Part shown: piece by piece, positions 453 to 42,357 of the stretch | Numbering within the stretch: the stretch's first letter is position 1 | Layout: each line of letters begins with the position of its first letter | From: Deltaproteobacteria bacterium | Lineage (GTDB): Bacteria > Desulfobacterota > DSM-4660 > Desulfatiglandales > Desulfatiglandaceae | Length of the DNA: 64,000 nucleotides | Direction: 5' to 3' | NCBI GenBank assembly: GCA_019307945.1 | Contig: JAFDIS010000006.1 | Span: 1-64,000, forward strand | Notes under the pieces: generated by a model | The model's input: only the letters and a program-made list of their open reading frames with translations | The model's database searches: none | Told to the model about the DNA's origin: nothing | Made by a program: the position numbers and the translations under genes

Positions 453-2072
453 TTGGAAGGTTCAATGAAAGAAGACAAAGGGTCTCCGGCCTGCGTGGAT
501 TCCGCCACCGGGAGGGATGATTACTGCCGGGCCATTCTCTGGAGCCTCGAAGACGAAATCTTCGTCCTGGATAGGGACCGGCTGATCACTGACGTGAACA
601 AGGATTTCCTGCCCCTGTGCGGGAAGCGAAAAGAAGAAGTCCTGGGCCGTCCCTGCCATGAAATCGCCCTTGGGCTGGACCGTCCGTGCGACGAAGCGGG
701 AGAACCCTGCTGGTTCGAGGATGCATTCCGCACCGGAAAGACACGCCACTTCCGGCGCCATCAAATCACAAGGGATGAATCCCGCATCCTGGTGGACGTG
801 CATCTTTGCCCCCTGAGAGACAAACGCGGCCGGATAACCCATCTGATCAAACGCGTCCGGGACATCAGCCAGGAGGTCCGGCTGGAAGCGCAGCTCCGCC
901 AGGCCCACAAGATGGAGGCCATGGGTACCATGGCGGCGGGCATCGCCCATGAGTTCAACAACATCCTGGGCTCCATCTTTCTCAACGCCGAACTGGCCCT
1001 CCAGGGAATGGATCCGGAGCATGAGTCCGGGCTTTTCGTTCGCAGGATCCTGGACGCAGGCCGCAGGGCCAGGGACCTGGTGGGACAGATTCTCACCTTC
1101 GGCCGGCAGGGGAGGCAGGAGCGAATCCCCGTTCATATCGTGCCGCTCGTCAAGGAGACCCTGAAACTGCTTCGCGCTTCCCTTCCGGCGAGTGTGGAGA
1201 TTAGGAACGAAATCACCACCAGCACCGGAATAATCGATGCCGACCCGGCCCAGATTCATCTGGTGCTCACTCACCTGTGTCTGAACGCGGCCCAGGCCAT
1301 GGCCGCAGAGGGCGGGGGAATTCTGGAGGTGAGACTTGAGGACACGGAGGTGGATGCCGAGATGGCGGCTGGGCATCCGGATCTTCACGAGGGTTCCTAC
1401 CTCAGACTGACGGTTCGAGACAACGGTCCGGGCATGGAGCCCTGGGTCCTGGAACGCATCTTTGAACCCTTTTTTACCACCAAGCGGGTGGATGAGGGCA
1501 CGGGGATGGGGCTGGCCCTGGTCCACGGCGTAGTGAGGGGTTACGACGGGGCCGTAATGGTCAAGAGCAGGCCCGGCCAAGGGGCCCTCTTCGAGGTTTA
1601 CCTGCCACGAGCCGAGATCGGAGTGCCCGATGAGCTCACGCCCGAAGGGCCCCTCGTCGGAGGCCGGGAGCGCATCCTCTTCGTGGATGATGAAGCGTCG
1701 GTCACGGGGGCTGCAGGCCATGTGCTCAGGCGTCTGGGTTACCGGGTCACCACGTTAACAGAGGCGGAGAAGGCCCTGGAATCCTTTCGGAATGCCCCGG
1801 AGGACTTCGATCTCGTTATCACCGACCTCACCATGCCCCGCATGGACGGTATCCAGCTTGGCAAAGCGATTCGGGAAATCCGTCCCGACATGCCCATAGT
1901 CCTCTGCACCGGTTACCGGGATGTTATCACGCCGGAAGAAATGGGGAGCCTCGGGGTCCGGGAGCTGCTCCTCAAACCCATGACCCGGAGCAGACTCGCC
2001 GCCGCGGTTAGGAGCGCGCTGGGTGACCTTTCAGGCCGGGGTATTGCAGTGCCCCTGGCAGCCAGGGGGTAA
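453..2072 (+). CDS. PAS hybrid histidine kinase with C-terminal receiver
   Basis: This is a 539-aa soluble sensor kinase without membrane segments. A PAS domain (about 25-140) contains several cysteines (C56, C68, C79, C86), so it may bind a metal or sense redox. It is followed by a HisKA dimerisation domain with phospho-acceptor His166 (AAGIAHEFNN), a HATPase_c domain (GTGMGLALVHGVV) and a receiver domain (about 405-525, TDLTMPRMDG). The TTG start at 453 has a GGGAGG Shine-Dalgarno at good spacing; an ATG at 465 is an alternative. The gene sits 6 bp upstream of the sigma-54 response regulator, its likely partner. Its kinase core closely resembles that of the gene at 13241. Confidence 0.9.
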   Translation: MEGSMKEDKGSPACVDSATGRDDYCRAILWSLEDEIFVLDRDRLITDVNKDFLPLCGKRKEEVLGRPCHEIALGLDRPCDEAGEPCWFEDAFRTGKTRHFRRHQITRDESRILVDVHLCPLRDKRGRITHLIKRVRDISQEVRLEAQLRQAHKMEAMGTMAAGIAHEFNNILGSIFLNAELALQGMDPEHESGLFVRRILDAGRRARDLVGQILTFGRQGRQERIPVHIVPLVKETLKLLRASLPASVEIRNEITTSTGIIDADPAQIHLVLTHLCLNAAQAMAAEGGGILEVRLEDTEVDAEMAAGHPDLHEGSYLRLTVRDNGPGMEPWVLERIFEPFFTTKRVDEGTGMGLALVHGVVRGYDGAVMVKSRPGQGALFEVYLPRAEIGVPDELTPEGPLVGGRERILFVDDEASVTGAAGHVLRRLGYRVTTLTEAEKALESFRNAPEDFDLVITDLTMPRMDGIQLGKAIREIRPDMPIVLCTGYRDVITPEEMGSLGVRELLLKPMTRSRLAAAVRSALGDLSGRGIAVPLAARG

Positions 2073-2078
2073 AGACCT

Positions 2079-3476
2079 ATGCCGAAGGTCCTGATCCTGG
2101 ACGACGATCCCATGATGAACGAGGCCTTGGCCAATGTAGTGGCGCGCCTTGGCCACGAGCCCTCCTGCGCCTTCACCCTGTCCGAAGGTCTGGACCTGGC
2201 CCGGGAGGAGGCATACGATGTCGTCTTCCTCGACGTGCGGCTGCCCGACGGAAACGGTCTGGAGGCCCTCCCATCCCTCAGGGCGGGGCCCGGGGCACCG
2301 GAGGTGATCATCATCACCGGGTACGGGGATCCGGATGGGGCCGAACTGGCCGTCAAGAACGGTGCCTGGGACTATATCCAGAAACCCTCCAGCATGGGAC
2401 GCATGTCACTGGCCCTGAGCAGGGCGCTTCAGTACCGCGCTGAGAAAACCGTAAGTCCCGGGCCCATGGTCCTCAAGCGGGAAGGGATCGTGGGCGCGAG
2501 CCTCAGACTGAACGAAGCCCTGGAGCGCCTGGCCCAGGCCTCCCAGACGGAGGGCAATGTGCTGATCGAGGGCGAGACCGGAACGGGAAAGGAACTGCTG
2601 GCCCGTGCGGTTCATGAAAACAGCCCAAGGGCCGGCAGGCGTTTCGTGGTGGTGGACTGCGCGGCATTGCCCGAATCCCTGGTGGAGAGCATTCTCTTCG
2701 GCCACGAGAAAGGGGCCTTCACCGGCGCCGACCGGGCCCACGAAGGTCTTATCCAGCAGGCCCACGGTGGGACCCTTTTCCTGGATGAAGTGGGGGAACT
2801 GCCCCTTCCTGTACAGAAAGCCTTCCTGCGCGCGGTCCAGGAGCGACGCTTTCGGCCTGTGGGCTCCGACCGGGAGATCGGGGTGGATTTCAGACTCATC
2901 GCCGCCACCAACAGGGACCTGGAGCGAATGGCGCAAGAGGGCCGTTTTCGCAAGGATCTCCTCTACCGTCTCCGCACCCACTTCATCCAGGCACCCCCTT
3001 TGAGGGAGCGCCGGGAGGACATCCGGGAACTGGCGGTTTACCACGTCAACCGGCTCTGCGAACGATACGGCACGGAGACCAAAGGGTTTTCCCCTGAGTT
3101 CTTCGAGGCCCTGAGCCTCTACGAATGGCCGGGGAATGTCCGTGAGCTATTCAACACCATGGAAGAAGCACTGGCCGCAGCAGGGGATGAACCCACCCTC
3201 TACCCATATCATCTGCCCATTGCCCTTCGGGCCCGGGTGGCTCGCTCGTCCGTCGAAAACCACGAGGAAGGCCTTCCCGCCCCATCTTCTCCCTCAGGGC
3301 CGTTGGAACAAGGCCCTTTGCCCACACTGAAGGCCTTCAGGGAGGAGGCCGAAAGGCGCTACCTCCAACGCCTGTGGCACCGGACCGGCGCCAGCCGAAA
3401 AGAAATGTGCCGGGTCTCGGGCCTTTCCAGGACCCGCCTCTTCGAACTGCTCAAGAAACACGGGATCCCCTCCTGA
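2079..3476 (+). CDS. Sigma-54-dependent response regulator (NtrC family)
   Basis: The 465-aa protein has an N-terminal receiver (phospho-acceptor Asp52 in FLDVRLPDG), an AAA+ domain (about 140-370) with Walker A GETGTGKE and the sigma-54-contacting GAFTGA motif, and a C-terminal Fis-type helix-turn-helix (SRKEMCRVSGLSRTRLFELL). All hallmarks of an active sigma-54 activator are present. It follows the kinase at 453 by 6 bp. The gene immediately downstream is preceded by a -24/-12 promoter and by palindromes placed where an enhancer should be, so this regulator is the likely activator of the 3753-15913 operon (inference). Confidence 0.95.
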   Translation: MPKVLILDDDPMMNEALANVVARLGHEPSCAFTLSEGLDLAREEAYDVVFLDVRLPDGNGLEALPSLRAGPGAPEVIIITGYGDPDGAELAVKNGAWDYIQKPSSMGRMSLALSRALQYRAEKTVSPGPMVLKREGIVGASLRLNEALERLAQASQTEGNVLIEGETGTGKELLARAVHENSPRAGRRFVVVDCAALPESLVESILFGHEKGAFTGADRAHEGLIQQAHGGTLFLDEVGELPLPVQKAFLRAVQERRFRPVGSDREIGVDFRLIAATNRDLERMAQEGRFRKDLLYRLRTHFIQAPPLRERREDIRELAVYHVNRLCERYGTETKGFSPEFFEALSLYEWPGNVRELFNTMEEALAAAGDEPTLYPYHLPIALRARVARSSVENHEEGLPAPSSPSGPLEQGPLPTLKAFREEAERRYLQRLWHRTGASRKEMCRVSGLSRTRLFELLKKHGIPS

Positions 3477-3527
3477 CTTCCGATCTATCCTCCCCCAGCG
3501 GCGGGATGTTCAAAAAGCCTTCAGGCT

Positions 3528-3565
3528 GTTCCGAAAAACGAACCGTGATGTTCGAAAAATTGAAC
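3528..3565 (+). promoter_or_regulatory. Candidate enhancer (UAS) for the sigma-54 activator
   Basis: Two palindromes of the form GTTC-N8-GAAC lie at 3528-3543 and 3550-3565, 22 bp apart, which is two helical turns. The second extends to ATGTTC-N8-GAACAT (3548-3567). A further GTTC half-site is at 3508-3511. They lie about 110-150 bp upstream of the -24/-12 element, the usual distance for NtrC-family binding sites. The binding protein is inferred to be the regulator encoded at 2079-3476. Confidence 0.65.
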
Positions 3566-3675
3566 ATTCAGGCCCGCTCCTAATTACCCGAAGCTTCATG
3601 GCGAATGGGCTTCAATCTAGTCTAACCTATTGAAAAATAATTAAAAAACTGTTTTTGATCTCCATCGTTGCCTTC

Positions 3676-3691
3676 TGGCACCACTCTTGCT
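3676..3691 (+). promoter_or_regulatory. Sigma-54 (-24/-12) promoter
   Basis: The sequence TGGCAC-N5-TTGCT matches the sigma-54 consensus, with GG at 3677-3678 and GC at 3689-3690 separated by exactly 10 bp. Transcription should start near 3702, about 50 bp before the ATG at 3753. It drives the signalling operon to its right. Confidence 0.85.
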
Positions 3692-3752: not shown

Positions 3753-4172
3753 ATGAGACAGGGATATCCAAACAACTACACCACGGTCTTGCTTTACGCC
3801 GCGCCCACCCATCGAGCGGGCAAGAGGCTTCGCAGGATCGTGGACCAGCTCGTCACGGAAGAGCACAAGGAATTCTACCAGTCCATCACAAGGCTCACCC
3901 AGCGGCTCAGAAGGCCCCTGGGGGAGCGTCCCATAGGGGTCTTCCTGGCCCGGGACGCGGATGAGCTGGCTACCCTGCTTTCGGTCAGGGACCTTCTCAG
4001 GGATCTGCGGGTCATCCTGGTGGTCCAGGATCATAAAGAGGACACACTGAGCCTGGCCCATGCCCTTTGCCCCCGGTACGTGACCTATGCGGACGGGGAT
4101 CTTGATGACGTGGCCGCGGTCATGGGAAAGATGATGGGAAAACACGGTCGCGACCGCGGGGTCGGACAATAG
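3753..4172 (+). CDS. Small protein with a receiver-like fold, function unknown
   Basis: The 139-aa protein is first in the sigma-54-driven operon. I do not recognise the family. Its second half (GVFLARDADELATLLSVRDL, then RVILVVQDHKEDTLSLAHAL, then YVTYADGDLDDVAAVMGKMM) alternates strands and helices like a receiver domain but lacks the acidic pocket and phospho-acceptor, so it may be a degenerate REC or a partner protein. I chose ATG 3753, with GAGGAG 13 bases upstream, because the longer reading frame would begin with a TTG inside the -12 promoter element. Confidence 0.6.
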   Translation: MRQGYPNNYTTVLLYAAPTHRAGKRLRRIVDQLVTEEHKEFYQSITRLTQRLRRPLGERPIGVFLARDADELATLLSVRDLLRDLRVILVVQDHKEDTLSLAHALCPRYVTYADGDLDDVAAVMGKMMGKHGRDRGVGQ

Positions 4173-4213: not shown

Positions 4214-4588
4214 ATGACACAAAGGGAAAAGGAGATTCAGGAGCGCTACTGCCGACTGATCAAGGACTATGCGGGGATCCGTCACGAAGAGGGCCTGCAG
4301 GCGGCCCGTTCCCTGGGCAGGGACCTGGGCCGATACAGGATTCCTGCCGAGGCGGTCGTCCGGCTTCATCGCGAGGCGTTGCAGCGATTCGTCGAGGAAA
4401 CCCCGCAGGCCGAGCTCAAGAGGGCCTTGCCCAGGGTATCGGCCGCCCTTGTGGAAGCCCTGAAGGGATACGAGGCGCCTTTGAGAGAGGGGCCCCCGGC
4501 CGGAGATCTCGCCGCATCGGCCCTCAGGGAGGCGGACTATCACCTTCGCTGTATCCTGCGCAAGAAGGCCCTCGGAAATCTACATTAA
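4214..4588 (+). CDS. RsbU N-terminal-like (kinase-recruitment) domain protein
   Basis: The protein is 124 aa and all-helical. The pattern YCRLIKDYAG, then LQAARSLGRDLGRYRIPAEAVVRLHREALQRF, resembles the N-terminal domain of phosphatase RsbU and related stand-alone domains that dock switch proteins. No catalytic domain is attached. It has an ATG start with an upstream GGAAAAGGAGG-like ribosome site. It lies 15 bp before the large hybrid kinase, which suggests an adaptor role in that pathway. The family match rests on pattern only. Confidence 0.55.
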   Translation: MTQREKEIQERYCRLIKDYAGIRHEEGLQAARSLGRDLGRYRIPAEAVVRLHREALQRFVEETPQAELKRALPRVSAALVEALKGYEAPLREGPPAGDLAASALREADYHLRCILRKKALGNLH

Positions 4589-4603: not shown

Positions 4604-8043
<3,440 letters not shown>

Positions 8044-8047
<4 letters not shown>

Positions 8048-9804
8048 AGGTGCTTTTGGCCGAAGACGACCCTGTTTCCAGGGCCCTTCTCCGTAAGGTG
8101 CTCCAGAAGGCCGGCCATGAGGTCCTGGTGGCCAAAGACGGTCTGGAGGCCAAGGATTTCTTCATTAAGAACGTGGTGAGGCTCGTGGTCACGGACTGGA
8201 TGATGCCGGGCCTGGACGGGTTGGGGCTCTGCCGGGAGATTCGTTCCGCGGGAAAACCCCATTATACTTATGTGATCGTGCTCACGGCCAAGGACGAAAA
8301 ACCGGATTTCATGCGGGCCTTCGAGGCCGGGGCGGACGACTATATCTCCAAGCCGTTCGACCCGGAAGAACTCCTCGCACGCCTCAAGACGGGTATGCGC
8401 ATCGTGCGGCTGGAGCAGGAGCACCAGAAACTGCAAGGGATCCTCATCGAAAGCCGGAACAAGCTGCGGGTGGTCTTCGACTCCCTGCGGGAACAGGTGG
8501 TGTCCGTGGACGAGGATCTCAGGATCGTCTCGGCCAACCGGGCCTTCCTCGACCGGAACGGCGTCACCTTCGACAAGGTCATCGGGAGGCACTGTTTCCC
8601 CAACGGGGACCCGGAAGTTCGGGGTTACCTCAGCGAGGGCACCAAAGCGGCTGTTCTGGCCGTGTTTCGTGAGGGAGATCCCGTGAGCATAGAGGAATCG
8701 TCTCAAGATCCGCAGGGTGAGATGGTCTTCAGAGAAATCAGTTGCCTTCCCGTCAGAGACGATGGGGGCAGGGTCTTCCAGACCACCATCCTTTGTCGCG
8801 ACACCACCGAGGAGCGACGGCGGACCCAGGAGATCGAGCGCCTCAACCAGCAGGTCCAAAAGGCCTACCAGGAGATCAAGGCCAAGAATGAGCGCCTGGA
8901 AGACGCCTTGCGACAGCTCAAGGACAGCCAGGCCCAGATCCTGCAGTCCGAGAAAATGGCCTCCATCGGCCAACTGGCAGCCGGTGTGGCACACGAGATA
9001 AACAACCCCACCGGGTTCGTGAGCAGCAACCTGAAGACCCTGGGCGATTATCAGAAGGACATCACGGATCTCATGGAACAATACAGGAAACTCTGTGCTT
9101 CCGTCCTGGAAAAGGCCCGGGGACGGGAGGATCTGAGGGATCTCGAAGAAGCGGTCTCACGCATCCGGGAGCAGGAAGAGGACGTGGACATCGACTTTGT
9201 CCTGGGCGATGCCCTCGACCTGATCCGGGAGTCCCAGGAGGGTACGGAACGGATCAAGAAGATCGTCCTGGATCTCAAGAACTTCGCCCATCCCGGAACC
9301 GACAAGCTCCAGTCCGCCGACATAAACGGGAGTATCGAGTCCACCTTGAATATCGTGTGGAACGAGATCAAGTACAAGGCCACGGTGCACAAGGACTACG
9401 GGGAACTTCCTCCGGTCAAGTGTTATCCCCAGCAGCTCAATCAGGTGTTCATGAACCTGCTGGTGAACGCGGCCCAGGCCATGGAAGACAAGGGGGAGAT
9501 CTTCATCTCCACACGGAGCGACAACGGAGAGGTTGAGATCGTGATCAGGGACACGGGCTCCGGCATCCCCGAGGAAATCCTTCCAAAGATTTTCGATCCG
9601 TTTTTCACCACCAAGGAGGTGGGAAAGGGGACGGGCCTGGGGCTCAACGTGGCTTACAATATCATCAAGAAGCACCGGGGCGAGATCCGGGTGGAAAGTA
9701 CTCCCGGCAAGGGCACGGCCTTTACGATCCGCGTTCCCGTGGAATTCAAGGAGCCGCCGGAAGAAGAAGCGGACGCTCAATCGGAGACACATCATGTCGC
9801 TTAA
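8044..9804 (+). CDS. Receiver-PAS-histidine kinase
   Basis: The 586-aa soluble protein has an N-terminal receiver ([13 protein letters not shown]), a PAS domain (about 140-255), a coiled coil (about 255-305), a HisKA domain with His317 ([11 protein letters not shown]) and HATPase_c ([18 protein letters not shown]). The start is ATG 8044, which overlaps the preceding stop, so the two kinases are translationally coupled. Receiving phosphate from the upstream hybrid kinase and autophosphorylating would make it an intermediate of a multistep relay (inference). Confidence 0.93.
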
Positions 9805-11149
9805 ATTTAAACACACGATCCTGCTGGTGGACGACGAGGAGGCGATCCTCAAGGCCCTCCAGCGGTTGTTTCGACGGGACGGCTACCGGATCCTGACCGC
9901 CGCGAGCGGCCAGGAGGGACTCGAGGTGCTCCGTGAGCACGGAAAACCGGTCTCCCTCATCATTTCGGATCAACAGATGCCGGGTATGAACGGGGCCCAG
10001 TTCCTGGAAAAGGCCAGGGCCATTTACCCTGACGCCATGCGTTTTCTCCTGACAGGCTACTCGGACATGGACGCCATCGTGGAGGCGGTCAACAAAGGTG
10101 AGATCCACCGTTACCTGACCAAGCCTTGGAACGACGAGGATCTTCCCCTTCAGGTACGGCAGGCCCTGGAGCAGTTCGAGCTAGTGGTCGAAAATCGCAG
10201 GCTTTCCGCATTGACACGGAGGCAGAACCGGGAGCTGGCCGATCTGAACCGGGACCTGGAACGGAAGGTCGAGGAACGCACCCGGGAGGTTCAAGAGAAG
10301 AACAAGGAACTTTCCAGGCTCAACCGGGAACTGGAGGCAAGCCTGTATGACACGGTGCGGGCCTTTGCCTCTCTGGCCGAGATGCACGCCGCGACACTGG
10401 CGGGGCACAACCAGCGGGTTAGCGCACTTGCAAAGGAAATCGCTTCGGCCTTCGGCCTTTCCGAGCGTGAGGTGGTGAGCGTCGAGACCGCCGCCCTGCT
10501 TCATGACATCGGAAAGCTCGGATTGAATGAGCGGATCCTCCGCTATGACACGGTCCGGTGGGGGGAAGAGGATAGAAAGGCCTACCGCAAGCACCCGGAG
10601 GAGGGTCAGGCCGTGGTCCAGTTCATCAAGCGCCTGGACCATGTGGGGCTCCTGATCCGCTCCCATCACGAGCGTTACGACGGCAAGGGTTTTCCGGACG
10701 GGTTGAAGGAGGAATCGATCCCCCTGGGCTCCCAGATCATCGCGGCGGCCGACGCCTATGACCGGATCGTTCACCTGAGGGTGAAGGCCAAGGTTCACGT
10801 GGAGGCCTACCTTAGGGCCAAAGGGATCACGCTGGATCACCTGCCGGAAGAAGAACTCCTCCAGCAGGCGGCCATCCATCACCTGGACCAGAACCGGGGG
10901 ACGAGGTACGACCCCGAGGTGGTCCAGGCCTTCGTGGGGATCCTGAAAGAGCGGGGTGTGCAGTACCGAACGGAAAGGTCCGTGCCCCTGGAGCTTCTGG
11001 AAGAGGGCATGGTACTGGCCACGTCCCTGTTCACAAAGAGGGGCAAGTTTCTTCTTCCCTACAATACGAAACTGACAGAGGAGCACCTGAACAAACTGCG
11101 GGTGATTCATGAAAACGACCCCTTGCCCGAAATCTACATCAACCCCTGA
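9794..11149 (+). CDS. Receiver-HD-GYP response regulator (probable c-di-GMP phosphodiesterase)
   Basis: The 451-aa protein has an N-terminal receiver (ISDQQMPGMNG), a long coiled coil (about 135-190) and an HD-GYP domain with the HD pair at His237-Asp238 (LLHDIGKLG) and the signature HHERYDGKGFPDGL, in which GYP is GFP. It is RpfG-like. Family members hydrolyse c-di-GMP in the cytoplasm, and the metal ligands expected for activity are largely present. The start overlaps the previous gene by 11 bp. Confidence 0.92.
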   Translation: MSLKFKHTILLVDDEEAILKALQRLFRRDGYRILTAASGQEGLEVLREHGKPVSLIISDQQMPGMNGAQFLEKARAIYPDAMRFLLTGYSDMDAIVEAVNKGEIHRYLTKPWNDEDLPLQVRQALEQFELVVENRRLSALTRRQNRELADLNRDLERKVEERTREVQEKNKELSRLNRELEASLYDTVRAFASLAEMHAATLAGHNQRVSALAKEIASAFGLSEREVVSVETAALLHDIGKLGLNERILRYDTVRWGEEDRKAYRKHPEEGQAVVQFIKRLDHVGLLIRSHHERYDGKGFPDGLKEESIPLGSQIIAAADAYDRIVHLRVKAKVHVEAYLRAKGITLDHLPEEELLQQAAIHHLDQNRGTRYDPEVVQAFVGILKERGVQYRTERSVPLELLEEGMVLATSLFTKRGKFLLPYNTKLTEEHLNKLRVIHENDPLPEIYINP

Positions 11150-11195
11150 GCGGGTGAGGGCAGTGCCCCCTCAGGGGGCGAGGAAAGGATTCGTC

Positions 11196-12056
11196 ATGGA
11201 ACGTGAAGCGTTCATCCGGAGACTGGAACAGGTGGAAGACCTTCCCACACTGCCTTCGGTGGCCATGGAGGTGAACCGGCTCCTGGAGGACGAGGATGTC
11301 TCCATCCGGAAGTTGACCGACACCATCGAGAAAGACCAGTCCATTGTGAGCAAGATTCTCAAGCTTGTCAATTCGGCCTTTTTCGGCCTCCGCTCCCGGG
11401 TGGACAACATCTCCCACGCGGTGACGTTGCTTGGCTTCAACACAGTGAGGAATGCAGTGCTTTCGGTCTCCGTCATCAAGACCTTCGGAGGAGTTAAGCC
11501 GGGTGACGGCTTCAGCATGGCCGACTTCTGGCGGCACGCCGTGGCCGTGGGGATCACGGCGCGGTTCCTGGGCCAGCAAACTCGGCTGGCCTCGCCCGAC
11601 AACGGCTTTATCGCAGGACTCCTTCACGACATGGGCAAAGTGGTGCTCTCGGCCTTCTTCCCGGAGATTTTCCGGGAGGTGCTTCAGGGCTTGGCCCGGG
11701 GGATTTCCTTTTATGAAGCGGAGCGCGATACCTCGCCCATGGACCACGCCAGGATCGGCGGATTCCTGGCCCGGCAGTGGCAGCTTCCCCGGAGCCTGAC
11801 TGACGCCATAAGGTGCCACCACGCGGTCAAGCAGAGTGCGGCCGATTACCGGCTTCTCCTCCTGGTCCATGCGGCGGACCTTGTCTCGGTGCGGGTGAGG
11901 AACGAGCAAGAGGGTGCCGAAGCCCTGAAAGGACTGCACCCGGAAGCCTTAAAGGCGGTGAGATCTCAGCTTGACAATTTCCATGACTGGTCTCAAGACC
12001 TCCGGGAAGAGATAGATACCGGGTGCCGCTTCTTTCTCGAGGAGTTGGATTCATGA
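11196..12056 (+). CDS. HDOD domain protein
   Basis: The 286-aa protein is almost entirely an HDOD domain (LPTLPSVAMEVNRLL, ISHAVTLLGFNTVRNAVLSVSV, GLLHDMGKVVLSAFF). HDOD proteins are non-catalytic or weakly characterised relatives of HD phosphohydrolases that act as signalling scaffolds and often accompany HD-GYP regulators, as here. ATG 11196 has a GAGGAAAGGA ribosome site. The stop overlaps the next start (ATGA). Confidence 0.92.
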   Translation: MEREAFIRRLEQVEDLPTLPSVAMEVNRLLEDEDVSIRKLTDTIEKDQSIVSKILKLVNSAFFGLRSRVDNISHAVTLLGFNTVRNAVLSVSVIKTFGGVKPGDGFSMADFWRHAVAVGITARFLGQQTRLASPDNGFIAGLLHDMGKVVLSAFFPEIFREVLQGLARGISFYEAERDTSPMDHARIGGFLARQWQLPRSLTDAIRCHHAVKQSAADYRLLLLVHAADLVSVRVRNEQEGAEALKGLHPEALKAVRSQLDNFHDWSQDLREEIDTGCRFFLEELDS

Positions 12057-12901
12057 GAGAGTATACACATACCATTCTTTGCGTGGACGACGAGGAAAAC
12101 GTTCTCCGCGCCCTCAAGCGCCTCCTGCGCAAGGAGCGCTATCGAATTCTGAGCGCGTCCACCGGGCGGGAAGGCCTCAGGGTCCTGGAGGAAGAGGACG
12201 TACACCTGGTGATCTGCGACCAGCGCATGCCGGAGATGAGCGGGACGGAGTTCCTGGCCCGGGTCAAAGAAGACTACCCGGACGTGATCCGCATGATCCT
12301 CACGGGGTATACGGATGTGGATTCGATCACCGAGTCGGTAAACAAGGGGCACATATACAAGTTCCTTCTCAAACCCTGGAACGATCAAAACCTCAAGCAG
12401 GAGATCCAGCGGGCCCTGGAACAATACGACCTGATCGCAGCAAACCGCGCGCTCCACGAAAAGGTCCTCCGGCAAAACCAGGAACTCACCCGCATAAACG
12501 AGGGCCTGGAGACGCTGGTCCGGGAGAGGACCCGGGAACTGCAGATCCAGAACCAGGCCCTGGAGCTGTCCCACGCGATCCTGGAAGACCTCCCCGTTCC
12601 CATCGTGGGGGTGAGCGCCGAGGGTATGGTCGTCCTGGTCAACAGGGAGGCTAGGGCCCTCGAGACCCCGGAAGGGGCCATCGAAGAAGGGAGGAGACTC
12701 TCCCGCTACTTTGATGAATTGGTCTCGGGCTGCGTGGCGCGCGTGCTGCGGGACGGAGCCTCTGAGAGCCTGAAGGCGGGGATTTCGGGAGAGAGCCCTT
12801 TTCGGGTGACCGTGACACCGCTTTCAGGGAGATTCAAGGGCAAGGGAGTCATTCTGGCCCTCGAGTCTCGGGGCAAGGGTCGTGGCCCCTGTGATCCATG
12901 A
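12053..12901 (+). CDS. Response regulator with coiled coil and C-terminal PAS-like domain
   Basis: The 282-aa protein has a receiver (ICDQRMPEMSG) strongly similar to that of the HD-GYP protein at 9794, including a GYTDVDSITESVNKG segment that parallels GYSDMDAIVEAVNKG. A coiled coil follows (about 135-180), then a short PAS-like domain (LEDLPVPIVGVSAEGMVVLV). No output enzyme is present. It may be a sibling of the 9794 protein that lost HD-GYP or exchanged it for a sensor module. The start overlaps the HDOD stop. Confidence 0.88.
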   Translation: MREYTHTILCVDDEENVLRALKRLLRKERYRILSASTGREGLRVLEEEDVHLVICDQRMPEMSGTEFLARVKEDYPDVIRMILTGYTDVDSITESVNKGHIYKFLLKPWNDQNLKQEIQRALEQYDLIAANRALHEKVLRQNQELTRINEGLETLVRERTRELQIQNQALELSHAILEDLPVPIVGVSAEGMVVLVNREARALETPEGAIEEGRRLSRYFDELVSGCVARVLRDGASESLKAGISGESPFRVTVTPLSGRFKGKGVILALESRGKGRGPCDP

Positions 12902-15975: not shown

Positions 15976-16485
15976 TTATTGGGCCCTGTCCCCCCTCGCA
16001 TGAGCTACGCCCACCAGTCCCAGGAGGCCCGAACCCAGGAGCAGGAGGCTTCCGGGTATGGAGACCGGCGACATGTCAAAATCTTCCGTGGCGGTCCAGG
16101 CTCCGTCGTAAATCAGGGTTCCCGCACCCTGGACCGCACCGTCCAGCATCTCGGCCCACTGCATCTCAAAGGGCGCCTTGTCGGAAAAGCGGACCTGCCA
16201 CCTGCCCTTTCCGGCCGCGATCTCGGGCCCCGCACCCCGGAGGTAAGTGGATGTCTGAACCTCGGTATTCCATCCCTGGGGATTGTTGGGCTGTTTCCAG
16301 TCCAGGAACGTCACGTCGCCTCCGGTGAGCCAGAGGTGAATTTCGTCCGGATCGTAATCATTCCGAAAGACCTGGGTCCAGGGGGCCGCCTGGGCCTCTC
16401 TCTCCCAGGCCGGTGTCGTGAGGCAAAGGGCGACGGCCAGCAGCAATGCGGCGCCGGCCATGATTTTCTTGGTATGTTTCGGCAT
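15976..16485 (-). CDS. PEP-CTERM-type secreted protein
   Basis: The 169-aa protein has an N-terminal signal peptide (KKIMAGAALLLAVALCLT, with cleavage near AQA-AP) and a C-terminal sorting signal: the SIPGS motif, the hydrophobic run LLLLGSGLLGLVGVA, and a basic tail HARGDR. This is the VPxPG/PEP variant seen in Desulfobacterota PEP-CTERM proteins, which are processed by exosortase and delivered to the cell surface or matrix. The middle part (about 35-140, tryptophan-rich) matches nothing I know. No exosortase is encoded in the window. It has its own sigma-54 promoter. Confidence 0.75.
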   Translation of the reverse strand: MPKHTKKIMAGAALLLAVALCLTTPAWEREAQAAPWTQVFRNDYDPDEIHLWLTGGDVTFLDWKQPNNPQGWNTEVQTSTYLRGAGPEIAAGKGRWQVRFSDKAPFEMQWAEMLDGAVQGAGTLIYDGAWTATEDFDMSPVSIPGSLLLLGSGLLGLVGVAHARGDRAQ

Positions 16486-16564
16486 GAAAAGTCACATCCT
16501 TTCATTTTCCAACTGTCCCGGCGAAGATTATCCATGGGCGACACCGGGGGTCGGCCTTTGAAAA

Positions 16565-16580
16565 TGCAAGAGTCGTGCCT
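16565..16580 (-). promoter_or_regulatory. Sigma-54 (-24/-12) promoter for the PEP-CTERM gene
   Basis: On the minus strand the sequence AGGCACG-N4-TTGCA matches the -24/-12 consensus, with the GG and GC dinucleotides exactly 10 bp apart (CC at 16578-16579 and GC at 16566-16567 in plus-strand letters). Transcription should begin about 70 bases before the ATG at 16485. PEP-CTERM genes are frequently sigma-54 controlled, and a sigma-54 activator is encoded next door. Confidence 0.8.
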
Positions 16581-16601
16581 GAACAATGCATTCAAGAGAA
16601 A

Positions 16602-16619
16602 CGAAAAAGGCCTTTTTCG
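16602..16619. repeat. Perfect 18-bp palindrome upstream of the sigma-54 promoter
   Basis: CGAAAAAGG and CCTTTTTCG form a gapless palindrome 22 bp upstream of the -24 element of the PEP-CTERM promoter. It may be an activator-binding site, although that is closer than usual for a sigma-54 enhancer. A hairpin role for the activator transcript, which ends at 16772, is less likely because there is no loop. Confidence 0.45.
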
Positions 16620-16771
16620 CCTGTGAAAACAAGCAAATGGCATTTTTCAAGGCAAAAATCCTACGGAATGAGAAGCGAGGTTCCGAGCAACACCGTGAAG
16701 AACTCGTAATCAGAGGTTGTTGGGATTACGATTTGGTAATCGACGTGGTCATTCCTTCGGGGGAGGCGGCT

Positions 16772-18139
16772 CTAACGGTTCCGCTTCCAGCCCGGATGAG
16801 TGATCCCGAATTTGCGGATCTTGTAGTTGAGGGCCCGGGGGGTGACGCCAAGGGCCAGGGCGGCATCCTTCTGCACCCAACGGGCATCTTCCAGGGCCTT
16901 GAGGATGAGCGCCTTTTCCTGGCTCCGGAGCCGGTCCGCACCTGCGGGCACGGGTCGTTCTCCCCCGCCGGAACTTTCGGTGCCGCTGAGGGAGATGCTA
17001 TCGGAACCGATCACGTCTCCCTCTTCCAGGATGGCGGCCCGCTCGATGGTGTTGGCCATCTGGCGGATGTTCCCGGGCCACGAGTAGGCTCGGAAGCGTT
17101 CAAGGACCTCGGGGGCAAACCCCGTGATCCGTTTTCTCAGGGTTCGACAGACCCGCTCCAGGAGCCAGTGGGCAAGTGGTTCGATACACTGTCGTCGTTC
17201 CCTGAGAGGTGGCAGGTGCACGGTCAGGACGTTGATTCGATAAAAGAGGTCTTCGCGGAATTTTCCCCCGCCGATCTGCTCTTCCAGGACGCGGTTGGTG
17301 GCGGCTATGACGCGAACGTCCGAGCGGATGGTGCGGTTTCCGCCCACCCGCTCAAAGGCCTTTTCCTCCAAGACCCGCAGGAGCTTGCCCTGGAGGGGCA
17401 TACTCAATTCCCCGATCTCGTCCAGAAAAATCGTCCCGCCCTGGGCCTGCTCAAAGCGTCCCACTCTCACCCTGTCGGCCCCGGTAAACGCCCCCTTTTC
17501 GTGACCGAACAGTTCGCTTTCAAGAAGCGTTTCCGGGATGTTGGAGCAGTTGATCTTCACAAAGGGCTTGTGCCTTCGGTGGCCGTTGAAATGGATGCTT
17601 CCGGAAAGGAAGCTCTTGCCGGTCCCGGTCTCCCCCGTCATGAGGATCGTGGCGTCGGTCTCGGCGAATTTTTTGAGCGATCTGATCACCGCCTTCATGT
17701 TGGGACTCTCCGCTATGATTCGGTCAAAATCATAGATCACGTCCTGCTCGTGCCGGAGATAATCGATTTCTCCCCGCAGGCTCTTGGTGTCAAGGGCCCG
17801 GTCCACGGCCAGGCGAATCTTGGCGGCCGAATAAGGCTTCCCCACGAAATCGAAGGCCCCTTCCTTGATGGCCCGCACCACGATTTCCGTTTCCTCCGTC
17901 TCGCTGGTCACCACCACCGGCATGTGAGGGCGCAGTGTGCGGATACGGGAGAGGAACCGGAAGGGATCCCCCGGCGCGGCCTGCAGGTCCAGGATCACCA
18001 GGTCATGGTGGCGTGAGGAAAGCCTGTGCTCCAGATCTCCTTCGGGGGACAGGAATTCCAGCGGGTGATCCGGCTCGAAGCCCCGGGAAAGGACCTCCCT
18101 CCAGCGTTTCTGATTTTCAACGGCCAGGATGCTGCCCAT
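16772..18139 (-). CDS. Sigma-54-dependent response regulator (PrsR-like candidate)
   Basis: The 455-aa protein has an N-terminal receiver (VILDLQ phospho-acceptor, FVGKP lysine, but only one acidic residue visible in the early VEN segment), an AAA+ domain with Walker A GETGTGKS and GAFTGA, and a Fis-type helix-turn-helix (VQKDAALALGVTPRALNYKIRKFGI). ATG 18139 has a strong GAGGAAAGGA site. It sits just upstream of a PEP-CTERM gene that carries a sigma-54 promoter, the arrangement expected for PrsR, the PEP-CTERM regulator. I infer that role from context and not from a diagnostic motif. Confidence 0.88.
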   Translation of the reverse strand: MGSILAVENQKRWREVLSRGFEPDHPLEFLSPEGDLEHRLSSRHHDLVILDLQAAPGDPFRFLSRIRTLRPHMPVVVTSETEETEIVVRAIKEGAFDFVGKPYSAAKIRLAVDRALDTKSLRGEIDYLRHEQDVIYDFDRIIAESPNMKAVIRSLKKFAETDATILMTGETGTGKSFLSGSIHFNGHRRHKPFVKINCSNIPETLLESELFGHEKGAFTGADRVRVGRFEQAQGGTIFLDEIGELSMPLQGKLLRVLEEKAFERVGGNRTIRSDVRVIAATNRVLEEQIGGGKFREDLFYRINVLTVHLPPLRERRQCIEPLAHWLLERVCRTLRKRITGFAPEVLERFRAYSWPGNIRQMANTIERAAILEEGDVIGSDSISLSGTESSGGGERPVPAGADRLRSQEKALILKALEDARWVQKDAALALGVTPRALNYKIRKFGITHPGWKRNR

Positions 18140-18232
18140 GGTGTTTCCTTTCCTCAATCATAGAGTGAAACCCGATCATGCCCCTGTCCCCACAGGCCCT
18201 CAGCGGGCGAATCCGAGGGCGGCCGCTCATGG

Positions 18233-40885: not shown

Positions 40886-41287
40886 GGTCGAAGCATCGCC
40901 TACACCCCGGGGGACCCGCTCCCTCGCATCCCCCCTCCCGTCCCTCTTTTTCTGTGGGCATCTTTGACGGGGATGGCCCCTCCTGATTTTTCAAGCATCC
41001 TTCAGCTCCTATCAAAAAACTCATCTTATCATATGGTTATCCCCATCCTTTCTCGAACTGAGTCTTTGGCACTTTTCTTGCTAATAGACTAATAGGTGCG
41101 GCCCCACTGGTTTTTTCTTGGCAGGGTGACGCCTCTCCTTAAGGTTCGGGTGCCGAACGTCGATAATGCATATGAGAGCGTCGAAACATCCCCGGTGAGA
41201 TCTCGGATGCGTTGTGCCGCCACTGCTGTGCGGCCCCTGGGTCGAGGTGCTTTCGAGGATCGATCCACGGATCGGGAGGACAGATCA
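40886..41287. other. Intergenic region with sigma-54 promoter and long leader
   Basis: This 402-bp stretch holds an AT-richer segment (about 40990-41045), the -24/-12 promoter at 41067-41082 and a roughly 195-nt leader before the Roadblock gene. The leader stays open in the Roadblock frame back to a GTG at 41096, but that GTG lies at the expected transcription start, so I do not treat it as coding. I see no clear enhancer palindrome. Confidence 0.6.
41067..41082 (+). promoter_or_regulatory. Sigma-54 (-24/-12) promoter of the Roadblock/MglA operon
   Basis: TGGCAC-N5-TTGCT matches the consensus, with GG at 41068-41069 and GC at 41080-41081 spaced by exactly 10 bp. Transcription should begin near 41093. 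No activator gene lies beside it, so a distant sigma-54 regulator must act here. Confidence 0.85.
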
Positions 41288-41692
41288 TTGACGTACGCCT
41301 TGGAACAGAGCCAGTTGGACGGCATTGAGTCGATTCTGCAGGAGGATTTCATCGATCTGGGGGTCCACTGCGCCTTCCTGATCGACATGGCCGGCAACAT
41401 CATCGCCAGCCTGGACAACGCCCGGCACAAACACGACGTCTACTCCCTGGCCGCACTGGCGGCCGGTAATTTCGGTGCCGTGAGCGCCATGGCCAAGATG
41501 ATCGGAGAGGAGGATTTTTCCCTGCTCTTTCACAAAGGAACGGCGGAGAGTATCCACTTCAGCAAAGTCATGAACGAGTTCCTGCTGATTACCATCTTCG
41601 GGAAAGAAGTTTCCCTGGGCTTTTTGCGGTTGAAGGTGAGTGAAGCGATCGAAAAGATCAAGACGATCCTGGAACCGGCATATGCACCCTGA
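41288..41692 (+). CDS. Roadblock/LC7 domain protein (MglB-like)
   Basis: The 134-aa protein is one Roadblock/LC7 domain (DFIDLGVHCAFLIDMAGNIIAS, then SLAALAAGNFGAVSAMAKMIG). MglB-type proteins are GTPase-activating partners of MglA, and an MglA-type GTPase follows 59 bp later. The TTG start at 41288 has a GGGAGG site at 8-base spacing. It is first gene of the sigma-54 operon. Confidence 0.87.
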   Translation: MTYALEQSQLDGIESILQEDFIDLGVHCAFLIDMAGNIIASLDNARHKHDVYSLAALAAGNFGAVSAMAKMIGEEDFSLLFHKGTAESIHFSKVMNEFLLITIFGKEVSLGFLRLKVSEAIEKIKTILEPAYAP

Positions 41693-41751: not shown

Positions 41752-42357
41752 ATGGCTTTCATCAATCTCAAAAAGAGAGAAGTTCAGGTCAAAATCGTCT
41801 ACTACGGCCCCGGCAGGGGCGGCAAGACGACAAACCTGGAATATATTTACAATAAGTTCAACCAGCGTATCCAGACCCAAATGGTCACCATCAAGACCCA
41901 GGGAGACCGCACGCTGTTTTTTGATTTTCTGCCTTTCGACATGGGCAAGATCAAAGGCTATGACGTAAAAGTCCAGCTTTACACGGTGCCGGGGCAGGTG
42001 AAATACAACGCAACGCGCAAACTGGTCCTACGGGGCGTGGACGGTGTGGTGTTCGTGGCGGATTCCATGACGGTGCGCCGAAAGCACAATATGCTCTCTT
42101 TGAAAAACCTGCAGCAGAACCTGGCCTCCTATAAAAAAAGCATCTTCAAGGTCCCCCTGGTCCTGCAGTTCAACAAACGAGATCTGGCCGAACAGGGAAT
42201 ACCTCTACTTTCCCTCGAGACCATGCAACGGGATCTCAACACGCACCTGAAGGCCCCGACTTTCGAGGCGAGCGCAATCGTGGGGACCAATGTGCCGGAA
42301 ACGCTCAAAAAGATCATATCAATGACAATGCTGTCCCTGGAAAAGGAACTGAAGTAG
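41752..42357 (+). CDS. MglA-type small Ras-like GTPase
   Basis: The 201-aa GTPase has a P-loop (GPGRGGKTTN), a G3 region with TVPGQ instead of DxxGQ, as is characteristic of the MglA family, and the guanine-specificity motif NKRDL. MglA proteins set cell polarity and control motility machinery, switched by Roadblock proteins. It has an ATG start, and the gene downstream begins 11 bp later. Confidence 0.93.
   Translation: MAFINLKKREVQVKIVYYGPGRGGKTTNLEYIYNKFNQRIQTQMVTIKTQGDRTLFFDFLPFDMGKIKGYDVKVQLYTVPGQVKYNATRKLVLRGVDGVVFVADSMTVRRKHNMLSLKNLQQNLASYKKSIFKVPLVLQFNKRDLAEQGIPLLSLETMQRDLNTHLKAPTFEASAIVGTNVPETLKKIISMTMLSLEKELK

Follow-up and report, generated by a model that had tools for sequence, protein, structure and literature searches.

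Between the gene for a sigma-54-dependent response regulator (bEBP) and a -24/-12 promoter, the window (i.e., the whole 64,000-nucleotide stretch analyzed here) carries two GTTC-N8-GAAC palindromes. This arrangement raises the question of whether the palindromes are the binding sites of the adjacent regulator and, if they are, which genes the promoter would switch. The features on the regulator side of the locus are as follows.

453 to 2072, plus strand: PAS - histidine kinase - receiver hybrid kinase (Pfam PAS, HisKA, HATPase_c, and Response_reg)
2079 to 3476, plus strand: sigma-54-dependent response regulator (bEBP) with a receiver, an AAA+ domain with GAFTGA, and a Fis-type HTH
3507 to 3518, plus strand: extra operator-like half-site GATGTTCAAAAA (read from the sequence itself)
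3528 to 3543: palindrome 1, GTTCCGAAAAACGAAC, perfect GTTC-N8-GAAC (pattern search)
3550 to 3565: palindrome 2, GTTCGAAAAATTGAAC, perfect GTTC-N8-GAAC (pattern search)
3623 to 3635, between operator and promoter: IHF-like element TAACCTATTGAAA, 1 mismatch to YAANNNNTTGATW
3676 to 3691, plus strand: predicted -24/-12 promoter TGGCACCACTCTTGCT, TGGCAC-N5-TTGCW without mismatch, with the conserved GG and GC

Regulator gene, paired palindromes, and promoter

The first-pass annotation had placed an activator gene just before the palindromes, and the domain search confirmed a sigma-54 response regulator there. The 2079-to-3476 product matches the Pfam receiver, Sigma54_activat, and AAA lid families, its translation contains GAFTGA, and alignment locates an HTH with the recognition helix SRTRLF. 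On the basis of this domain make-up, the protein is predicted to be an NtrC-type sigma-54 response regulator. It resembles AtoC and NtrC and scores below all NCBIfam equivalog cutoffs (i.e., AtoC, NtrC, PrsR, ZraR, and others), the best equivalog being AtoC (341 bits versus a cutoff of 714). Several genomes of the same order encode relatives of this bEBP with 45 to 60% identity. The hybrid kinase encoded at 453 to 2072 is its presumed partner, and a kinase gene lies upstream of the bEBP gene in 19 of the 34 relatives with enough sequence. Neither a GTTC-N8-GAAC nor a -24/-12 match was found ahead of the kinase and regulator genes, so there is no indication of autoregulation.

The palindromes are exactly as had been described, with centers 22.0 bp apart (i.e., about two helical turns). 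The first of them starts 52 bp after the end of the bEBP gene (3476), and the pair covers positions 111 to 148 bp before the -24 element. An additional GTTC half-site (3510 to 3513, within GATGTTCAAAAA) is located 18 bp upstream of the pair. Single GTTC-N8-GAAC palindromes occur at near-chance frequency (3 in the window versus 1.16 expected, with at least 3 in 11 of 100 shuffles; about 51 expected genome-wide). The tandem doublet is unique in its own 4.16-Mb genome, where the next best site has 2 mismatches. A search of 395 phylum genomes found the exact doublet in 2, while about 0.2 would be expected from composition alone and a reversed control pattern gave 0 matches. Both exact doublets are located at a bEBP/pseudo-receiver junction, namely, at this locus and in genome G160, which belongs to another taxonomic family. 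Single palindromes being common, the significance rests with the tandem pair.

The same palindrome had been suggested as a query for other sigma-54 promoters in the genome. The genome-wide regulon search did not find a second promoter site beyond this locus that would confirm the motif, and the only other perfect TGTTC-N2-AAAA-N2-GAAC site in the genome (contig C46) lies inside coding sequence. The description of the circuit as self-contained fits, the genome's sole operator pair being at this locus. The promoter had been called near-perfect and has zero mismatches to TGGCAC-N5-TTGCW; such matches, like single palindromes, are expected by chance about once or twice per 64 kb. The genome encodes rpoN.

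As the mark of an IHF site, we took WATCAANNNNTTR between the upstream activating sequence (UAS) and the promoter, together with an encoded IHF. A variant, YAAN4NTGAAW, which was noticed before being tested, occurs in 13 of 62 regions of relatives versus 1.1 expected, mostly at 40 to 43 or 52 to 53 bp before the -24 element (i.e., at positions about one helical turn apart). Since the generic IHF consensus was not enriched in the relatives' regions and no protein of the genome passes the IHF-alpha cutoff (HU/IHF-type proteins are present below it), the idea that IHF might act as the bender at TAACCTATTGAAA is a guess.

The window contains other sigma-54-like sites. A second cassette of the same kind occupies 15976 to 18157 on the minus strand, where a bEBP gene (18157 to 16772) is followed by a perfect 18-bp palindrome (CGAAAAAGGCCTTTTTCG, about 16619 to 16602), a -24/-12-like element (AGGCACGACTCTTGCA, 16580 to 16565), and a gene (16485 to 15976) whose product has a C terminus that looks like a PEP-CTERM sorting signal. 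Another perfect -24/-12 match (TGGCACTTTTCTTGCT, 41067 to 41082, plus strand) stands just ahead of an ORF (41096 to 41692) that by eye reads like a roadblock protein, and ORF 41752 to 42357 reads like an MglA-type small GTPase.

The putative target operon and its pseudo-receiver

The genes downstream of the promoter, all on the plus strand, are as follows.

3753 to 4172, plus strand: predicted stand-alone pseudo-receiver without catalytic residues, first gene of the target operon (AlphaFold2, Foldseek)
4214 to 4588, plus strand: RsbU_N-like small protein (Pfam PF08673; E value, 1.2e-5; just over the gathering score)
4604 to 8047, plus strand: Tll0287-like/PAS hybrid histidine kinase with two receivers (Pfam)
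8044 to 9804, plus strand: receiver - PAS - histidine kinase ATPase protein (Pfam)
9794 to 11149, plus strand: receiver - HD-GYP type protein (NosR-family c-di-GMP phosphodiesterase model over its cutoff)
11109 to 12056, plus strand: HDOD domain protein (Pfam)
12023 to 12901, plus strand: ORF with a receiver-like N terminus, probable last operon gene (ORF translation only)

Since the genes from 3753 to about 12901 are closely spaced, we infer that they form one operon. The operon had been announced as one of signaling genes, and the domain search agrees, with kinases, an HD-GYP regulator, and an HDOD protein following the pseudo-receiver. The RsbU_N-like protein is encoded as a stand-alone domain between the pseudo-receiver and the hybrid kinase, and no homolog of it was found in the other loci compared.

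The 3753-to-4172 protein has no convincing Pfam or NCBIfam match and no PDB sequence match. An AlphaFold2 model built with 40 homologs (pLDDT, 89.6; pTM, 0.82) contains five beta-alpha units, and the best PDB folds found by Foldseek (TM, about 0.6) are the CpaE N-terminal receiver-like domains (4dad and 4dn6) and the receivers of response regulators. The 40-sequence alignment lacks the catalytic DD, D, T/S, and K residues of receivers: 0 of the 40 members have an acidic residue at the end of beta-3 (columns 64 to 66), and the conserved Lys after beta-5 is absent. A Pro after beta-4 is present in 37 of the 40 members, and L-x-P-R and P-D motifs are conserved in the family. Since the modeled receiver (beta-alpha)5 fold lacks the phospho-acceptor and its partner residues, the protein is, as modeled, a stand-alone pseudo-receiver. 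Neither the receiver family PF00072 nor the smaller Pfam families of pseudo-receivers that PMC12632262 names matched any of the 40 members at an E value of 1, and the family, which the first-pass annotation had overlooked, is apparently undescribed.

Members of the family were detected in 52 of the 395 phylum genomes (13%). A check for occurrence outside the phylum, made on 50 genomes reached from named loci, gave only 3 matches (titled Desulfobacteraceae, Desulfobacula, and Desulfobacterales), and a scan of a viral collection gave one weak match. Of 61 sampled genomes of the order, 13 have a close bEBP relative; the pseudo-receiver was present in 11 of these and in 0 of the 48 others. Such a bEBP gene immediately precedes about half of the copies, the rest being elsewhere or on cut contigs. 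In 25 pseudo-receiver loci, chemoreceptor or CheW genes are located within 3.5 kb downstream (downstream sequence of at least 2.5 kb was available for 59 loci), and a Pfam scan of the downstream genes agrees with this linkage. The operon studied here carries histidine kinases, the HD-GYP regulator, and the HDOD protein in place of the relatives' chemoreceptor/CheW genes. As a guess, the pseudo-receiver might serve as an adaptor or as feedback towards the adjacent kinase or chemoreceptor.

Genome G018 has four pseudo-receiver genes (L204, L201, L132, and L139), two of which are located away from this bEBP subfamily and are preceded by palindromes with other letters. Two close bEBP relatives, L134 (G032) and L135 (G012), belong to genomes without a pseudo-receiver. 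Behind the promoter-like element, L134 has a gene whose product reads as a canonical receiver, and L135 has one for what reads as a prepilin-like protein; the target is therefore exchangeable.

Conserved layout and variable operator letters across the phylum

The first-pass annotation had treated the orthologous regions as a check on the palindromes, and at the level of architecture the palindromes withstand it, with different letters in orthologs further away. Many relatives across the phylum repeat the order bEBP, palindromes, -24/-12 element, and small protein; their palindromes equal those here in length (16 or 17 bp), lie about 95 to 155 bp before the -24 element, and have other letters (i.e., GTCC, GTCT, and TTCC). 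GTTC letters are not kept in orthologs of the same taxonomic family, so support for the exact sequence comes from two other loci only. Exact GTTC palindromes are absent from same-order orthologs, which led us to a broader palindrome class. In 32 bEBP-adjacent regions, this class yielded 26 palindromes versus 5.3 ± 2.7 in dinucleotide shuffles. Since the class was defined after inspection of the sequences, it was tested on 31 further (held-out) regions, where 11 palindromes were found versus 2.75 ± 1.85 (0 of 300 shuffles as high); these palindromes occur in 29% of the held-out regions versus 6% of windows further upstream. Some loci in both region sets have no palindrome under the strict definition. 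At the promoter, a score of at least 17 was reached upstream of 71% of 77 pseudo-receiver genes versus 12% of control windows. We took paired palindromes about 80 to 200 bp upstream of a promoter and conserved with the regulator as the mark of a UAS. The pair has this layout and conservation, as judged from the sequences, and is a candidate bEBP enhancer.

In the bEBP tree, this regulator groups with those of L213, L216, and L220 (support, 0.993), and all four clade loci carry two 16-bp palindromes 22 bp apart. The sites are GTTC pairs here and in L213, have one mismatch in L216, and are of the GTCT/TTCT type in L220. The recognition helix SRTRLF is common to this locus, L213, and L216 (in the last case read by eye from DNA whose reading frame is broken at the end) and was not seen elsewhere in the set. 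Members with SRPxLY have GTCT- or TTCT-type sites. Each of these two associations between helix and half-site letters gave a Fisher P value of about 0.003, as post hoc tests on sequences that are not independent. A paralog on contig C10 of the same genome is arranged in the same way, with GTCC/GTCT sites and SRSRFY as its helix, so that one cell contains two such circuits whose operators differ. Across the cassette, the letters of the operator and the HTH appear to have diversified in concert, and on this ground paralogous circuits within one cell probably stay separate.

Proposed mechanism, rival explanations, and known systems

The palindromes had been predicted to be the site of the adjacent regulator and to control the operon, and the layout, the enrichment, and the helix association all favor this prediction. 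We consider it very probable that the two GTTC-N8-GAAC palindromes are the UAS through which the NtrC-type regulator switches the pseudo-receiver operon. The hybrid kinase (453 to 2072) would phosphorylate the receiver of the regulator (2079 to 3476), whose dimers would bind both palindromes side by side on one DNA face (22 bp), with assembly of the AAA+ ring. The DNA would then loop, perhaps with help from bending at TAAC-N4-TTGAAA, and contact with the sigma-54 polymerase at 3676 to 3691 would be made through GAFTGA. The operon would thereby be turned on, with the pseudo-receiver expressed first and the sensor kinases, HD-GYP regulator, and HDOD protein after it. The locus would be one member of a phylum-wide cassette (i.e., kinase, bEBP, palindromes, -24/-12 element, and pseudo-receiver, often followed by CheW/chemoreceptor genes).

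GTTC/GAAC half-sites are also present in LexA boxes of other bacteria, and by this resemblance the palindromes could be the operator of another regulator acting in the same intergenic region, such as a LexA-like or other global repressor. However, a global regulator should have more sites, whereas the doublet is unique and the other perfect site is intragenic; moreover, sites of this type are found repeatedly next to members of this bEBP subfamily and change along with the HTH. We therefore regard control by another regulator as unlikely. The position of the repeats just past a stop codon, along with the capacity of palindrome 2 to fold as a hairpin, would also suit a role in RNA, as hairpins or as a terminator for the transcript of the kinase and regulator genes. 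We rejected this explanation, which we judge very unlikely: folding is only mildly better than that of shuffles (z, -1.4 to -1.6), the sole terminator-like match is on the opposite strand and within chance, and what relatives conserve is the pairing of 16/17-bp palindromes within a fixed range of the -24 element. Finally, about one or two single palindromes, and as many -24/-12 matches, are expected in every 64 kb, so chance palindromes might lie near a real or chance -24/-12 element; the unique doublet, its second occurrence in a distant genome at the homologous junction, and the family-wide enrichment make such a coincidence extremely improbable.

The reading as the UAS of the adjacent regulator places the locus close to known systems. 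NtrC-family regulators have been mapped in Desulfovibrio vulgaris, where most sites are inverted repeats of 4 to 6 bp with 3 to 8 bp between them (PMC3333781, PMC4641369). The present locus shares with these systems a receiver-AAA+-Fis HTH activator, palindromes upstream of a -24/-12 promoter, and a small local regulon; it differs in that the operon starts with a pseudo-receiver, the activator falls below all equivalog cutoffs, and the operator letters vary within the family while the layout is kept. The D. vulgaris orp operons depend on sigma-54, DVU2106, and IHF, the IHF dependence being experimental (PMC3897727). They likewise have an IHF-like site between palindromic EBP sites and a -24/-12 promoter, whereas only the IHF-like element was found here, with no protein above the IHF-alpha cutoff. 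The best fold matches of the pseudo-receiver are the N-terminal receiver-like domains of CpaE/TadZ (4dad, 4dn6), but the pseudo-receivers are about 125 to 140 aa, stand alone without the ATPase part, and share about 20% identity with them. Like other bacterial pseudo-receivers (PMC12632262), including FrzS (PMC1974792), they have a receiver fold without the phospho-acceptor Asp and other catalytic residues; unlike the known ones, they fall outside every receiver and pseudo-receiver Pfam family searched. The operator type and the NtrC-type mechanism are ordinary and known (PMC3333781, PMC4641369). What looks new is the recurring cassette, together with its unnamed pseudo-receiver and the diversification of the operators, and a limited search of the open-access literature did not find a cassette with a pseudo-receiver and co-diversified operators.

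These loci provide paralogous sigma-54 activators with sites that can be read from the sequence. Since each site adjoins the gene of its activator, the rules of bEBP DNA recognition and the insulation of circuits become directly testable. They also expose an unnamed pseudo-receiver family that is genetically linked to kinases and chemoreceptors, and the switching mechanisms of bacterial pseudo-receivers have been described as a mystery (PMC12632262). On balance, we lean towards the view that Desulfobacterota-type bacteria possess undescribed stand-alone pseudo-receivers, often under a dedicated kinase/bEBP pair with a co-diversified operator and helix, and that a cell may contain several insulated sigma-54 circuits, each of which would feed its own pseudo-receiver to a chemoreceptor/kinase sensing module, possibly as feedback or as an adaptor.
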